Source: a virus. From it: a DNA stretch of 20,050 bases. Made by a program: the position numbers and the translations under genes. Below, in pieces: positions 1,844 through 7,203 of this stretch; the stretch's first letter is position 1; each line of letters opens with the position of its first letter. The stretch is taken from positions 1 to 20,050 of IMG/VR virus record IMGVR_UViG_3300025132_006587; one strand, given 5' to 3'. The notes under the pieces were generated by a model that saw nothing but the letters and a program-made list of their open reading frames with translations, searched no databases and had not been told where the DNA came from.

Positions 1844-2046
1844 TGTATTTTGAAGCACAAGTAGTATTTACAGAAGAGATACCAACAAAGAATGGTGTAA
1901 GAGAAAAGAAAACTCGTAGAGCGTTTTTAGTTGAGTGTGATTCTGTATCAGTAGCAGAAGCAAAAGTAAATGAGGTATTAAAAGATTCACCTTATGTTTT
2001 TGAAGTTAAAGTAGTTAAAGAATCTAAAATTGTAGAGGTAATATAA
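1843..2046 (+). CDS. Small DUF4494-like protein
   Basis: A 67-residue protein, MYFEAQVVFTEE..., with a FLVECDSVSVAEAKV segment. The order (short beta strand with an aromatic start, a variable loop with NG, a second strand ending LV-D/E-x-xS, then an A-E-A helix) resembles one repeat of the DUF4494 family, which is found mainly in Bacteroidota and their phages; this is recognition by eye, not a search. Function unknown. It is coupled to both neighbours by TAATG overlaps. Confidence 0.55.
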   Translation: MYFEAQVVFTEEIPTKNGVREKKTRRAFLVECDSVSVAEAKVNEVLKDSPYVFEVKVVKESKIVEVI

Positions 2047-2195
2047 TGACATTCGTAGAGGCATGTGATTTACTAACTGAAATATTAGTTGGTAAGAAAA
2101 AAGAAACTCTTTTACAAAAGAAAAAGAGAACAAGAAAAATAAAACCTAATCTTAAAACTAAAACCAAAAGAAAATATACGAGGAAGAAGAAATGA
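2046..2195 (+). CDS. Small basic protein of unknown function
   Basis: A 49-residue frame starting MTFVEACDLLTEILVGKKK, with a short helix followed by a tail of about 30 residues dominated by Lys, Arg and Thr (for example TKRKYTRKKK at the end). Such polybasic tails bind nucleic acid or acidic surfaces, but nothing more specific can be said. Both ends overlap neighbouring genes (TAATG at 2044-2048; ATGA at 2192-2195), which supports real translation. Confidence 0.5.
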   Translation: MTFVEACDLLTEILVGKKKETLLQKKKRTRKIKPNLKTKTKRKYTRKKK

Positions 2196-2332
2196 ATCCA
2201 AAGGTAGAAATGATATTTGATATCATAATTACAAGTCTTAAACTTGGTGCAGGATGTATATTACTATATGTAATGTATCAATTCTCTTTAGGTATGGAAG
2301 CTTGGGTTGAATTAGATAAGGTGATGAGATAA
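2192..2332 (+). CDS. Small single-pass membrane protein
   Basis: A 46-residue frame, MNPKVEMIFDIIITSLKLGAG..., with one hydrophobic stretch at about residues 8-34 and a short charged C-terminus (ELDKVMR). It is coupled by an ATGA overlap upstream and a TAATG overlap downstream. No family is recognised. It precedes a predicted exported protein, so the pair may act together at the envelope, but this is only positional inference. Confidence 0.5.
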   Translation: MNPKVEMIFDIIITSLKLGAGCILLYVMYQFSLGMEAWVELDKVMR

Positions 2333-2919
2333 TGTTACAAGGTTTTTTAAGTGGACTAATCTTATTCACATCATTTAGTGCAAGAACACCTAACGATGAT
2401 TCTATAACTCAAGATGATTATGAGATTGCTCTTGGAGTTAAGAGTGAGAACATATATATCAAAAGAGATTGGGAACGAGAGTTAGGACAATCTTATACTG
2501 ATGATGAGATTTGGTTTGAGTATGAACCTAAGAACTTTTATTTTAAACCACAATATGTCAATAAGACATCTCGTGATTTGAAATATGGTAAGGCTGATGT
2601 TCGTTATCGTAGTGGTATTTATTCTATTGGTTACACAGGATTATTTTCAGATGATAAATTTGAGAGTGGTTTATCAATGGGTATCCAAAAGAAAAAAGAA
2701 ATCAACGATAAATTCTCAATGGAAATTAAGTGGGATGGTTATTATTTCAGAAATGAATTAACTGGTGAGAATCGTTTTGATATGGAAGATTATGCACAAA
2801 TTAATTGGAAAATATCAGACAAGTTGATACTTACTAATATCTTTGATTATAATGATATCAAGGGTAGGAAATATTATAAATTCAAAATAGGAGTAGAATA
2901 TGTCCTTGGCAGAAATTAA
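2332..2919 (+). CDS. Predicted exported beta-rich (outer-membrane-barrel-like) protein
   Basis: A 195-residue protein with a short signal-peptide-like start (MLQGFLSGLILFTSFSA, possible cleavage after SFSA). The rest alternates polar and aromatic or hydrophobic residues in short strands rich in Y, F, G and D, and ends in ...GVEYVLGRN. The repeated strand-turn pattern (YYFRN, YAQINWKIS, LILTNIFDYND, YKFKIGVEYV) is what outer-membrane barrels of the porin or YdiY type look like, but about 175 mature residues allow only a small barrel. No family is confirmed. A phage protein of this kind could alter the host surface (for example superinfection exclusion) or take part in lysis; both are inference. 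Confidence 0.6.
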   Translation: MLQGFLSGLILFTSFSARTPNDDSITQDDYEIALGVKSENIYIKRDWERELGQSYTDDEIWFEYEPKNFYFKPQYVNKTSRDLKYGKADVRYRSGIYSIGYTGLFSDDKFESGLSMGIQKKKEINDKFSMEIKWDGYYFRNELTGENRFDMEDYAQINWKISDKLILTNIFDYNDIKGRKYYKFKIGVEYVLGRN

Positions 2920-3058
2920 AAAGAGATTAGAAGAAGCGTACAATCAAGAAGATTGGAACATCGTTGAAGATTTAATAGATGTGTTAGATACTCACATCAC
3001 GATAGGTGAAGGTGATGAAGTATTTGAATGGGAAGATGACCATGATGAGATTGATTAA
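2900..3058 (+). CDS. Small acidic protein of unknown function
   Basis: A 52-residue protein starting MSLAEIKKRLEEAYNQEDWN, with an N-terminal helix and a very acidic tail (EWEDDHDEID). AGGAG at 2889-2893, six bases before the ATG, is a good ribosome site, and the start overlaps the end of the preceding gene by 20 bases. The pattern of two short helices followed by an acidic tail is common in phage accessory proteins of unknown role. Its stop lies three bases before the mature 5' end of the tmRNA. Confidence 0.65.
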   Translation: MSLAEIKKRLEEAYNQEDWNIVEDLIDVLDTHITIGEGDEVFEWEDDHDEID

Positions 3059-3061
3059 TAT

Positions 3062-3403
3062 GGGGCTGACTGGTATTGACAGGTATTGGAAGGGATTGAG
3101 TGCAACAGAGATTGAGTATGTCTCGTTCACAAAAGACTCACAATTCTAATTGGCAATCAAGTCAATTTTGCTTACGCTTAGTTCGTAAGTCGTCACACCA
3201 TGACACCGATAATGGGATGTGGCGTCGGAATCGGTAAGACCACTCACTTCAGGTTTAGAGTCTAAATGAAATCTCAGTTAAACCATTCTGTGTAAAATGG
3301 GACATGGTGGGTTGTTGGTGACTACCGATTTGGAACCAACTAAGTTGTGAATGACTTAACTTGGAAAATAGGCTGGACGCGGGTTCAATTCCCGCCAGCT
3401 CCA
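3062..3403 (+). ncRNA. ssrA: Transfer-messenger RNA (tmRNA), one-piece form
   Basis: tmRNA rescues ribosomes stalled on broken mRNA: it enters as an alanyl-tRNA mimic and then serves as template for a short degradation tag. Seen here: GGGGCTG at 3062-3068 pairs with CAGCTCC at 3396-3402 as a 7-bp acceptor stem; the T arm is GCGGG, TTCAATT, CCCGC at 3379-3395, inside the typical GGACGCGGGTTC context; the 5' end reads GGGGCTGACTGG. A pseudoknot (PK1) forms from GAGAT/GTCTC (3108-3112, 3120-3124) and TGAGT/ACTCA (3113-3117, 3136-3140), ending 11 bases before the tag frame, the usual distance. A 6-bp hairpin CTTACG/CGTAAG (3171-3176, 3184-3189) holds the tag stop in its loop, as in helix 5. The length of 342 is normal for a one-piece tmRNA. 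Discriminator A3403 is followed by CTA, so CCA must be added after transcription. Confidence 0.95.
3152..3181 (+). other. tmRNA tag reading frame, GNQVNFAYA then TAG
   Basis: Starting 11 bases after pseudoknot PK1, the frame GGC AAT CAA GTC AAT TTT GCT TAC GCT TAG encodes GNQVNFAYA. This frame is preferred over the others because of its distance from PK1, its stop in the helix-5 loop, and the match of its N-F-A-x-A part with the N-Y-A-L-A-A ending of known tags. A glycine resume codon is characteristic of Bacteroidota tags such as GETNYALAA. The alternative frame beginning GCA (3153) gives AIKSILLTLSS and lacks a tag-like ending. Confidence 0.7.
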
Positions 3404-3423
3404 CTAAAAAATGAGGTTACAAA

Positions 3424-3744
3424 ATGTTAGTAGAGTACATATTATTAGGAATATTATCACCGATACTTTTAAACTTAATGCATTTGATGGTTGGATTGTA
3501 TGTTGTGGTACAAAGAGGTAATATATTATCTTTAGGTTTTTCGGCAATGGGATTTCTTACAAAATCAATTGGTATGATATTTTTGGTTTATTTAGGAATA
3601 TCAATTCTGAATTTAGATATCAAAATATTTATACCATTAATAACATTCTTTTGGTTTTTCACACATGTAGTTGAAGGATTTGTTATCCAACATTATATGA
3701 GAGAAAACGAAAGTGAATACATAAAAAGTATACAAATAAAATGA
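3424..3744 (+). CDS. Three-helix membrane protein of unknown function
   Basis: A 106-residue protein with hydrophobic segments at about residues 4-29, 36-62 and 66-86 and a charged C-terminus (MRENESEYIKSIQIK). The ATG lies 20 bases after the tmRNA and is preceded by GAGG at 3413-3416. Its size and three-helix layout faintly recall small ATP-synthase-associated AtpI-like proteins, but no motif supports that. It overlaps the start region of the following envelope protein, so both may work in the inner membrane. A holin-like role is possible but unsupported. Confidence 0.65.
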   Translation: MLVEYILLGILSPILLNLMHLMVGLYVVVQRGNILSLGFSAMGFLTKSIGMIFLVYLGISILNLDIKIFIPLITFFWFFTHVVEGFVIQHYMRENESEYIKSIQIK

Positions 3745-3773
3745 ATTTTAACAAACTTAGGAGATATTTATAT

Positions 3774-4331
3774 ATGACTATTGTAAAGGATTTCCTTAAC
3801 TTTAGGAAAAATGAAATGAACAAATTAAAATTATCAATAATGATATTAATGCCAATCTTGGTATTTAATACTTTTGTTTGGACAACAATTTTTGAAAAGT
3901 ATAAGGAAAATATGTTATTAATGACATCTGAACTTCAGAGAGAAAACGAGAGATTAAATTCTCTTGTAGAGGAGTTCAAATTAGAGGGAATGGAAGTGAC
4001 GGTAACTATGTATCACCCTGTTAGTCGTCAGACAGATTCTACACCGAACATTCTCGCGGATGGAACGCGAATAAGAGTCCACAAGGCAAGTGAATACAAA
4101 TTTATTGCGGTGAGTAGAAATCTTCTGAAACGACATGGTGGTTTCTTAGATTATGGTGATTTCATTGTTTTAAAAGGAACTGATGGTAAGGATGGTGTTT
4201 ACCAAGTTAAAGATACGATGAATAAAAGATTTGTTAATCGTATTGATATCTTAGAATCACCAGGAACTAAACCTTACAAGTTTGATAGTGCAAAAATAGT
4301 AAAGACAAATTTAGTAATGAATAATAATTGA
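3774..4331 (+). CDS. Membrane-anchored protein with a 3D (RlpA-like) domain
   Basis: A 185-residue protein: one transmembrane segment at about 20-40, a predicted coiled coil at 41-68 (LQRENERLNSLVEEF), then a domain at about 74-160 resembling the 3D/RlpA double-psi barrel (VTVTMY...IAVSRNLL...VKDTMNKRFVNRIDIL, with D147 and D158). The family binds or cleaves peptidoglycan, as in MltA. The first Asp of the usual three is replaced here (IAVS instead of AVDP), so lytic activity is uncertain. The start at 3774 is chosen because AGGAG sits at 3759-3763; an in-frame ATG at 3741 overlaps the previous stop but has no ribosome site. The topology (N-in, domain in the periplasm) suggests a lysis or cell-wall role, by inference. 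Confidence 0.7.
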   Translation: MTIVKDFLNFRKNEMNKLKLSIMILMPILVFNTFVWTTIFEKYKENMLLMTSELQRENERLNSLVEEFKLEGMEVTVTMYHPVSRQTDSTPNILADGTRIRVHKASEYKFIAVSRNLLKRHGGFLDYGDFIVLKGTDGKDGVYQVKDTMNKRFVNRIDILESPGTKPYKFDSAKIVKTNLVMNNN

Positions 4332-5884
4332 TGAAAAAACAAAAATGGTTTTATGAAAAGTCTAACATTGCGAGTAAAGACAATCCAATTAATATAACCT
4401 ACGATGAATTACTTCACAAGAGTGATTCAGATGTAGAGAAGTGGATTGATGAACTTCGTACATATGTTATTACCCAATGGGATGAGAATGGTCAACCACC
4501 TGTTATTGGTCAGAATGAAGACGAGATAATCAGTAATTGGAAAAAATTATTTGGGTATGATGTAGAAGGGTTCTTTGATGAAAAAACAAAAGTCATAAAG
4601 AACTTCAACAAGTATGCAAGTGGAGTGAATCAGTTCTTTCCAACAATGTTAAAAACAAAAATATCTACAGGTGTAAGTAGTGAAGGTGCAACTTCTATTT
4701 ATGACCACTTCAAAGAAGATAATCTAAGAGAAACATTTAAGAAGGCTATGTTGAGGTCACTATATAAAGACTCAATGTATACTTTTAGTTTAAGTGTTAA
4801 GGTTAAGGAAATGGGTGTAAGTAATGTATCTGATTTTCTAACACAAACTAATCAAGACCCAACTTATGGTATTATGGTTATTAGACAAAGTGATACCAAA
4901 CCAGTAGATATAGATTCTCAATATCTTATATTAAAAAAGAGTGAAGTAGAAATGTACCTAACCACAGGTTGTTTGACAGAACAAAATCTTAGAACAATTG
5001 GTGATGAACTAAAAGATAGTTATGAATTAAAAAATGGTGAGAAAAGATATTACCATTATTATATTAGAAAGTATAAAAGAAAACAAAGAATTTTTCCAAG
5101 TGCACTTCAAGTATTTAGATTAGGACTTGGACAACCTGCAGTAAACTTTCCACCATTGACTGCAAAGTTTTTATATGAACATTTTACAAAACATATCAAA
5201 GATGATAAATTAATTATATGTGACCCAAGTAGTGGTTGGGGTGGTAGAATCTTAGGTGCAATGTGTAGTGATAGAGATATTCACTATGTTGGTATTGACC
5301 CAAATCCTGATAACTTAGGTAGATATGAAGAGGTTGCCGACTATTATAACAAACATTGTTTCAATCCTAATCCATTTTGGGGTAAAGGTGAACCAAACAC
5401 ATATGAAATATTTAGAGAGGGTAGTGAAGAAGTTGGGAACAATTCTAAGTTTAAATCGTATAAGGGACGCTTGGATATGGTTTTCACATCACCACCGTAC
5501 TTTAACAGAGAACAATATTCACAAGATGAGAATCAAAGTTTTAAAAAGTTTAGTGCTTACGAAGATTGGAGAGATAACTTTCTCAGACCAACTCTTGAAA
5601 CAATGTACACTTACTTAAAACCTGATAGATATTTGTGTTGGAACATTGCAGATATCAAAGTAGGTAGTAATAAATACATTCCATTAGAACAAGATAGTAT
5701 TGATGTAGTGGAAAGTCTTGGTGGTGAATATCAAGGTATTTATAAAATGTTAATGACAAGGATGGTTGGTATAGACGCATCCAATGTAAAGAATTCAGTA
5801 ATGATTAAATCACACCCACTTAGTCGTGGTGGTGATTACTTTAAGTTTGAACCAATATTAATTTTTTATAAACCGAAGGAGTGA
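4331..5884 (+). CDS. DNA methyltransferase (SPPY type, N4-cytosine or N6-adenine) with long N-terminal domain
   Basis: A 517-residue protein. The SAM-binding motif I is DPSSGWGGR (about D298-R306) and the catalytic motif IV is TSPPYF (S387-Y390), followed by strands typical of the Rossmann-fold amino-methyltransferases (YLKPDRYLCWNIADIK). The order I then IV fits the gamma-like arrangement. SPPY in motif IV is most common in N4-cytosine methylases, but adenine cannot be excluded. About 290 residues lie before motif I, much more than a minimal methylase, and may be the DNA-recognition domain; they contain a basic YIRKYKRKQR stretch. No restriction enzyme is adjacent, so this is an orphan enzyme, probably for self-protection or epigenetic control. 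ATG 4331 overlaps the previous TGA; TTG at 4328 is less likely. Confidence 0.88.
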   Translation: MKKQKWFYEKSNIASKDNPINITYDELLHKSDSDVEKWIDELRTYVITQWDENGQPPVIGQNEDEIISNWKKLFGYDVEGFFDEKTKVIKNFNKYASGVNQFFPTMLKTKISTGVSSEGATSIYDHFKEDNLRETFKKAMLRSLYKDSMYTFSLSVKVKEMGVSNVSDFLTQTNQDPTYGIMVIRQSDTKPVDIDSQYLILKKSEVEMYLTTGCLTEQNLRTIGDELKDSYELKNGEKRYYHYYIRKYKRKQRIFPSALQVFRLGLGQPAVNFPPLTAKFLYEHFTKHIKDDKLIICDPSSGWGGRILGAMCSDRDIHYVGIDPNPDNLGRYEEVADYYNKHCFNPNPFWGKGEPNTYEIFREGSEEVGNNSKFKSYKGRLDMVFTSPPYFNREQYSQDENQSFKKFSAYEDWRDNFLRPTLETMYTYLKPDRYLCWNIADIKVGSNKYIPLEQDSIDVVESLGGEYQGIYKMLMTRMVGIDASNVKNSVMIKSHPLSRGGDYFKFEPILIFYKPKE

Positions 5885-5889
5885 CGAAG

Positions 5890-7203
5890 ATGAAATTTAG
5901 AGATTACGATGTAGAGATACCAAAACCATATCATAATGGTAAACAATGGATTTATGATGATACACCAACATATCAGAATTTATTAGATTGTTTTATGGAA
6001 ACACAAAGACCAGAGGGTGAAAAGAAAATTCGTGAACATTATGGTAACACGAGATTAAGAGACCCATTTAGAAAATTAAATAAAATGGACTTACAATTAG
6101 CGTTTGACCATGTAAAAGGTCGTGAAGGACATGCATATGAGGTTGATTGGGTAGAAGATAATGATGGTAAGATTGTTGCATGTATTTTATATTACAACAT
6201 GAAGAACATGAAAACACAATTTAAAAAGATTAAATCTTTTACAGGAGCAGAATATAAATTAGTCACAAAGAGTGATGCGTATATTCGTGAGATTGCATGT
6301 TATCCTGGTCAAGAACAACATTTATATGACTTGATAAAAAGACATGAGTCAGAGGGTAGTAGTATATTTGATGAAGGAACGACCGTAGTTGAGTGTGATA
6401 TGCAAAACAAAAGGATGGTTGAATTACTACAAGACTTAGGTTATGAAAGAAGAGATAACTTGATTACGAGTTTTGCAGATATGTATGGTTATTGGTTCAA
6501 AGGAGAACATACAGGTGAACTCGCAAAATCACAAGAAATCTCACTACAGAGATTAGACTTAGATGTTCAAGACACAGACCCACTAATGGAACAAATCTTT
6601 GCACTACAAGAAGACTTTGCTAACCACTATAGTAATTACAATAAAGGTAATTCATGGAGTGGTATTGTGGTTCGTGGTTATGGTGGTAAAGAAGACTTTA
6701 TTATCAAACCTGCAGAGATGAATCAAAAGTGGAGAAAAGAAAATGCAGAAAAGTTAGAGTGGAAGGTAGAGGATACACCACTTAGAGAAAGACTTACTGA
6801 AGTAGAGAAGTTTGCTAAACTCTTACCATTTGAACATGAAAGAATTCGTATCTTGAAATTAAGTCAAGGTGAGGGTGAACTTGAAAGACATACTGATAGA
6901 CAAGATGTAGAAGCTGGAATTGGTGATGGTCAATGGGCAAGACTACACTTTCCATTAAAGACAAATCCAAAGGTTGAGTTTACTCAATGGAATTGTGATG
7001 GTAGTGTTACTAAATCTCAAATGGGTAAAGGTGAGTTGTGGTATTTAGATATGAGAAAACCACACACTGCTATTAATTTTGGTGAAGAGGATAGATATCA
7101 TTTAATCATAGATGTTAAGTCAGGACCAGAATTAAGAAAATGGTTAGTGGATAGTAGTCACAAATATCCAAGTAACAAACAACCAGATTGGTATGTTGAT
7201 TAA
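5890..7203 (+). CDS. Fusion of a GNAT-like domain and a 2OG-Fe(II) oxygenase (Asp/Asn hydroxylase-like)
   Basis: A 437-residue protein. The C-terminal part (about 310-420) is a cupin-type oxygenase: HTD at 334-336 (iron ligands H334, D336), distal H392 in KPHTAINFG, and R402 in DRYHLIID for 2-oxoglutarate, which is close to the aspartyl/asparaginyl beta-hydroxylase family. The middle (about 80-205) resembles a GNAT acyltransferase: a KIVACILYY strand, the YIREIACYPG segment, and a C-terminal LLQDLGYERR like the usual LYxxxGF end. The acyl-CoA loop is not clearly seen, so this half is less certain. Start 5890 is chosen because AAGGAG lies at 5876-5881; GTG 5881 overlaps the methylase stop. Being next to a DNA methylase suggests base or protein modification, but the substrate is unknown. 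Confidence 0.75.
   Translation: MKFRDYDVEIPKPYHNGKQWIYDDTPTYQNLLDCFMETQRPEGEKKIREHYGNTRLRDPFRKLNKMDLQLAFDHVKGREGHAYEVDWVEDNDGKIVACILYYNMKNMKTQFKKIKSFTGAEYKLVTKSDAYIREIACYPGQEQHLYDLIKRHESEGSSIFDEGTTVVECDMQNKRMVELLQDLGYERRDNLITSFADMYGYWFKGEHTGELAKSQEISLQRLDLDVQDTDPLMEQIFALQEDFANHYSNYNKGNSWSGIVVRGYGGKEDFIIKPAEMNQKWRKENAEKLEWKVEDTPLRERLTEVEKFAKLLPFEHERIRILKLSQGEGELERHTDRQDVEAGIGDGQWARLHFPLKTNPKVEFTQWNCDGSVTKSQMGKGELWYLDMRKPHTAINFGEEDRYHLIIDVKSGPELRKWLVDSSHKYPSNKQPDWYVD

Follow-up and report, generated by a model that had tools for sequence, protein, structure and literature searches.

The window analysed here, a whole 20,050-base IMG/VR contig from a marine phage, almost certainly carries a complete one-piece tmRNA (ssrA) gene, which extends on the plus strand from the 5' G at 3062 to the discriminator A at 3403, and the tmRNAs of related phage records fall into two tag classes, short and long. 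The window gene is a new member of the phage tmRNAs already known; the extended tag found throughout its lineage has not been described, as far as the literature could be searched.

The initial annotation had proposed a phage-encoded one-piece tmRNA at this place, and this is borne out by the comparison of the window with all Rfam families (cmscan), in which the tmRNA family RF00023 was the sole match above gathering (47 bits for this model). The covariance-model check that had been suggested therefore gave a strong match, located at 3062-3406 on the plus strand and covering model positions 1-374 of 374 with 102.7 bits and an E-value of 1.6e-39. As this match is collinear and full-length, the gene does not have the permuted two-piece organization, in which the 3' part lies upstream of the 5' part. 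The acceptor stem, T arm, PK1, tag frame and stop-codon hairpin that had been recognised are all present in the sequence, the end previously placed at 3403 is exactly the discriminator A, and T4-like baseplate genes are found on this IMG/VR virus contig. ARAGORN made no call anywhere in the window and so missed the tmRNA. The CCA end is not encoded and must be added to the tmRNA, since positions 3404-3406 read CTA.

The folding of this RNA was analysed by covariation among 16 related sequences (alignment A3), using a structure written from the window sequence. Over these sequences 87% of the cells pair, and 36 of the 81 pairs are changed on both sides against a mean of 23 after shuffling, a value that none of 500 shuffles equalled. 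The covariation score was 0.335, compared with 0.179 (sd 0.009) in the shuffles and at most 0.140 when the partners were slid, and sliding them by 1-3 columns lowered pairing to 34-47%; deriving the structure from one aligned sequence favours it over the slid versions, but does not explain the double changes. Covariation is seen in the acceptor stem, helix 2, PK1, PK2 and the T arm. The acceptor stem (GGGGCUG at 3062-3068 with CAGCUCC at 3396-3402) contains one compensated pair, and the U opposite G3 is invariant in 16 of 16 relatives. PK1 (3108-3140) is formed by S1 (GAGA/UCUC, 3108-3111/3121-3124) and S2 (UGAGU/ACUCA, 3113-3117/3136-3140), with 100% of cells paired and 5 of its 9 pairs changed on both sides, so both elements in which compensatory changes had been anticipated do show them across relatives. 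Helix 2 pairs 3080-3106 with 3344-3375, and helices 2-4 of the count include 12 pairs with changes on both sides. In the T arm (GCGGG-UUCAAUU-CCCGC, 3379-3395) 100% of cells are paired and four of five pairs are changed on both sides. PK2 (3191-3235, S1a/S1b plus S2) is, like PK1, strongly supported, with double changes in 8 of the 11 pairs of stem 1. Support is partial for the probable PK3 (3247-3284; 60-84% of cells paired, three pairs changed on both sides) and weak for the PK4 region (3285-3340, including a hairpin GUUGGU...ACCAAC at 3314-3340; 66% of cells paired), because relatives vary in form there. Four pseudoknots are typical of many tmRNAs, although not of all.

The tag reading frame runs from 3152 to 3181 on the plus strand (GGC AAT CAA GTC AAT TTT GCT TAC GCT TAG) and encodes the nine residues GNQVNFAYA; the tags of relatives align with it in frame. 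Its resume codon GGC lies 11 nt past PK1 and is preceded by UAAUU (3147-3151), in which the A at -4 and the U at -5 correspond to A86 and U85 of E. coli. A86 is the main determinant of the tag frame in E. coli (PMC2481249), and the A at -4 is kept in the window and in 38 of 38 aligned long-class sequences. The UAG stop codon sits in the loop of the helix 5 hairpin (3171-3189), where CUUACG and CGUAAG form six pairs and 96.8% of cells are paired.

The gene is closely flanked by other genes of the same strand. Upstream, an acidic ORF of 52 aa (2900-3058) ends 3 nt before the tmRNA and, downstream, a hydrophobic ORF of 106 aa (3424-3744), which has a GAGG-type ribosome site, starts about 20 bases after its 3' end; neither matches any family. 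These short distances on both sides make it most likely that the tmRNA would be processed out of a longer transcript. No terminator-like site was found within 2000-4400, and the late-promoter-like TATAAATA, present 8 times in the window against 4.4 expected by chance, does not occur immediately before the tmRNA on the same strand. The next gene (3741-4331, start probably at 3774, same strand) encodes a conserved protein of 196 aa belonging to PHROG 21574, to which PHROG gives no function. The deformylase noticed before, which may belong to one operon with the tmRNA, is indeed present, about 2.8 kb upstream and on the same strand: its C-terminal end, cut by the window edge, occupies 2-304 and contains HEIDHLNG (PF01327, E 3e-6). 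Same-strand neighbours also include a cytidylyltransferase-like protein, two DNA methylases and a T4-like baseplate block (gp25, PF04965; gp6-like PHROGs). In addition, two oxygenase-like genes lie near the tmRNA, one at 991-1638 with a weak match to a 2OG-Fe(II) oxygenase model and the other at 5881-7203 with a match to Asp/Arg hydroxylase (PF05118).

Temperate phages often use ssrA as integration site (PMC12656738), and a tmRNA gene in a viral contig could be a relic of such integration, or contaminating host DNA. However, the window gene is complete, shows compensatory changes and has phage genes on both sides within a T4-like gene set, no integrase was recognised among the window proteins scanned, and the same neighbour recurs in many contigs; this synteny across divergent phages refutes the relic explanation, to which we give a negligible probability. 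Relatives of the 196-aa protein are encoded on 121 viral contigs, and in the loci aligned the tmRNA adjoins this same gene. We found a full-length tmRNA above the cut-off in 33 of 50 related phage records, most of which were reached via the 196-aa protein and a few via the baseplate protein. The statement of the initial annotation that tmRNA genes are rare in phages thus holds for phages overall (402 of 18,146 genomes; PMC9004378), but not within this lineage. Relatives that share the 196-aa neighbour and have no tmRNA were also observed (L109-L146), the full-length gene being absent from their whole tree group, and a further 18 loci from this group contained none either.

Surveys based on ARAGORN miss part of the one-piece phage tmRNAs and read long tags wrongly: this program called 11 of the 25 covariance-model-positive relatives tested, and all 8 long tags that it called were truncated. 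These misses and truncations helped the long-tag class to go unseen. For the same reason, the figure of only 2.5% marine among one-piece phage tmRNAs has to be read with care, as the survey that produced it (PMC9004378) was run with ARAGORN.

Tags of the short class have 9-11 aa and usually end in AYA (GNQVNFAYA in the window; GNTANYAYA, GTQFNYAYA, GNYANVAYA, GTYSNVAYA, GTQANLTYAYA and others elsewhere), and DNYTQYAYAA also occurs. Tags of the long class start at the same resume position and have the form G-D/E-x-S-L-x-G-L-x-I-D-W-H-L-A ... QP[ST]YAYA(A); we have collected 54 distinct ones of 34-42 aa, a range that leaves out one (L252) read past the usual stop (49 aa), and a motif scan located the long tag on 141 viral contigs. 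They are about four times the usual tag length, at or above the top of the published range of 8-35 aa (review, PMC8012679). All but one of the 54 end in YAYA, AYAA or close variants, the tail being FAYA in the window and mostly AYAA or YAYA in the long class. The usual LAA ending, typical of ssrA degrons of the ClpXP type, is found in neither class. When the window is compared with one long-tag locus (L093), the two tags are alike at both ends (codons GGC...GCT TAC GC), as if an in-frame loss or gain of some 28 codons had taken place in the interior of the tag.

Mapped on a tree built from the 196-aa protein, the tag classes and the absence of the tmRNA require at least four changes. Long tags turn up at several points of this tree, a distant group among them, and short tags at two points or more; without an inferred root and with some long branches, the tree does not give the direction of change. 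We prefer to read the distribution as a long-tag ancestor followed by reductions to the short form.

Among 50,697 phage records there was no named-phage DNA match to the window. By the baseplate protein, the nearest named phages are Microcystis phage Mel-JY01 (46%), the uncultured 484-kb LR756508 (40%) and Flavobacterium immuto (39%); a full-length tmRNA is absent in the first and the last and present in LR756508, and blastn with the latter's tmRNA matched only itself. In this tmRNA (L174:1935-2378; LR756508.1 92434-92877), the frame from the expected resume codon reads GVNNADYESAGFTAEDFAQMDGESLYHGSERKPAAV, a tag of 36 aa unrelated to the long tags of the window lineage; this is a manual reading, ARAGORN placing an 8-aa tag in another frame. 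Judging from this sequence, long tags may not be confined to the window lineage. Searching named phages for the long tag of the window lineage gave no match with E below 3. Two Pedobacter matches proved to be due to chance, as one is antisense to a large ORF and the other spans the same 15 residues; this leaves a phage-like contig of 7.5 kb from the MAG TMED198 as the only bacterial source.

Selection acts on the long tag at the level of codons, and its RNA is structured as well. In its own frame pN/pS is 0.27 for the N-terminal block and 0.18 for the C-terminal block, compared with 0.8-2.7 in the two other frames. Since the peptide motif had served to find most long-tag loci, a possible source of bias in these values, the calculation was repeated on 15 loci found via neighbours, independently of the tag motif, giving 0.36 and 0.27 versus 0.9-1.5. 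Codon-position entropies of 0.30, 0.17 and 0.76 indicate that third positions vary most; changes of length stay in frame and stops fall at one place. Selection on the short tag is weak (pN/pS 0.77). At the RNA level, the long-tag segment of 19 sequences folds more stably than its synonymous shuffles (mean z -2.9); the fold includes stems GGGUUG/CAACC and GCGA/UCGC, and a small hairpin is located at the resume codon. This folding signal, together with the placement by ARAGORN of a short tag inside the long segment, is what an untranslated RNA arm would have in its favour, but the variable third positions, the frame-keeping lengths, the single stop place and the low pN/pS restricted to one frame make such an arm highly improbable. 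Because of the folding signal some conserved residues (S, GL, QP) may nevertheless be partly held by RNA structure too, and the whole motif should not be credited to a protein receptor. The isolated long-tag peptide is predicted to be disordered (pLDDT 60).

We propose that the window gene very probably yields a working tmRNA that would perform trans-translation during infection together with host SmpB. The tmRNA would be excised from a longer phage transcript by RNase P at its 5' end and by trimming at its 3' end, a host enzyme would add CCA, host alanyl-tRNA synthetase would charge it with alanine through the G3-U pair, and host SmpB would bind it. Cutting of mRNA by phage or host nucleases in infection would leave stalled ribosomes; the tmRNA would enter ribosomes stalled on cut or non-stop mRNA, the extra tmRNA returning them to use, translation would resume at GGC, adding A-GNQVNFAYA, and the tagged product would meet a host protease. 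The dependence on a host factor is deduced from the search for SmpB genes, which yielded none in the window or among the related records covered, including contigs of 164.8, 125.6 and 120.4 kb; all these records are classed as possible fragments, so that this absence is suggestive only. The same absence would fit a decoy RNA with an irrelevant tag, which would block trans-translation in the host by binding to SmpB or alanyl-tRNA synthetase, and mycobacteriophage DS6A has in fact little beyond a tRNA-like domain, a similar molecule being a strong inhibitor of tmRNA (PMC4131195). However, a decoy does not need a readable frame, and here the mRNA-like domain is retained as a whole, together with the A at -4, an open tag frame and the hairpin around the stop codon, and the long tags are under codon-level selection, so we consider a decoy very unlikely.

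With respect to the fate of the products, we lean towards the tag leading to degradation. The C-terminal end is the best-kept part of the tag in both classes, as expected for a degron. A tag that rescues ribosomes and leaves a stable product, or a long tag acting as a peptide with its own target, would agree with the missing LAA end, with the conserved SLxGLxIDWHLA block far from the C-terminus and with plaque formation in E. coli requiring ribosome release and not tag function (PMC2481249); given that C-terminal conservation and the lack of any match to the long tag in PDB, we regard it as unlikely. If the tag is a degron, tails such as N[FY]AYA (window) and QP[ST]YAYA(A) (long class), without LAA, would probably not contact a protease in the same way as the tag of the host does, and their unusual form hints at an altered or additional contact; that the contact differs from that of ClpX with LAA we put forward only tentatively. 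Neither the C-terminal domain of Lon nor SspB was found in any of 14 phage records. A gene for a ClpP-like serine protease is present on the minus strand of two long-tag records, 109 and 120 kb in size (L266:1501-2127 and L267:1504-2109).

The window lineage bears on the question of why phages carry tmRNAs: the gene is kept beside a conserved neighbour, and it is chiefly the tag, on which the fate of a rescued protein depends, that sets it apart from the usual bacterial tmRNA; our guess is thus that product fate, or the protease used, differs. More speculative, and in our opinion rather unlikely, is a new kind of tag in which the RNA-structured and protein-conserved SLxGLxIDWHLA...YAYAA sequence of 34-42 aa would deliver rescued proteins to one specific receptor, for example an adaptor or a protease distinct from host ClpX, a 9-aa core being left in some phages, including the window. 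If this were true, the phage would change what becomes of rescued proteins in the course of infection. With 54 distinct long tags and natural short-tag counterparts in sister phages, the question of tag fate is testable.

Compared with the bacterial one-piece tmRNA (RF00023), the window gene is alike in its architecture, G3-U acceptor pair, A at -4, hairpin-ended tag frame and pseudoknots, and differs in the tag tail (AYA/AYAA in place of ALAA), in the D-loop (GGUAUUGAC versus the Rfam consensus GGaUUCGAC), in not encoding CCA and in the 34-42 aa tags of many relatives. Phage tmRNA genes are known from the mycobacteriophages Bxz1, Catera and others and from Bacillus phage G (PMC4131195); the window belongs to a different lineage with different tags, without DNA similarity to the phage records mentioned above and without SmpB in the records searched. 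The marine phage Melnitz and the pelagimyophages (PMC9004378) are likewise marine myophages with their own tmRNA, for which the same role has been proposed, but their tmRNAs are permuted and two-piece, whereas that of the window is one-piece. As for possible hosts, the TMED198 contig (L256, NHIV01000037.1) carries a long-tag tmRNA and tRNA genes for Ala, Cys and Gly, and this marine bacterial MAG has its own tmRNA with a different tag (ADYGYAAAA), so the binned phage contig is a weak hint to TMED198 as host. Finally, according to a review (PMC9382460, which cites Gur and Sauer 2008 and Ge and Karzai 2009), the tag of Mesoplasma florum, from a group without ClpXP, is longer than that of E. coli and ends in NYAFA for Lon. 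The phage tags resemble these Lon-read Mollicute tags, as described there, in the aromatic-A tail (NYAFA versus N[FY]AYA) and, in relatives, in length, a resemblance only, and the long ones differ in sequence, having 34-42 aa with a motif of their own. By analogy with Mollicutes, the long tag would probably be a degron that makes contact at more than one site, and the likeness of the tails may serve as a lead.
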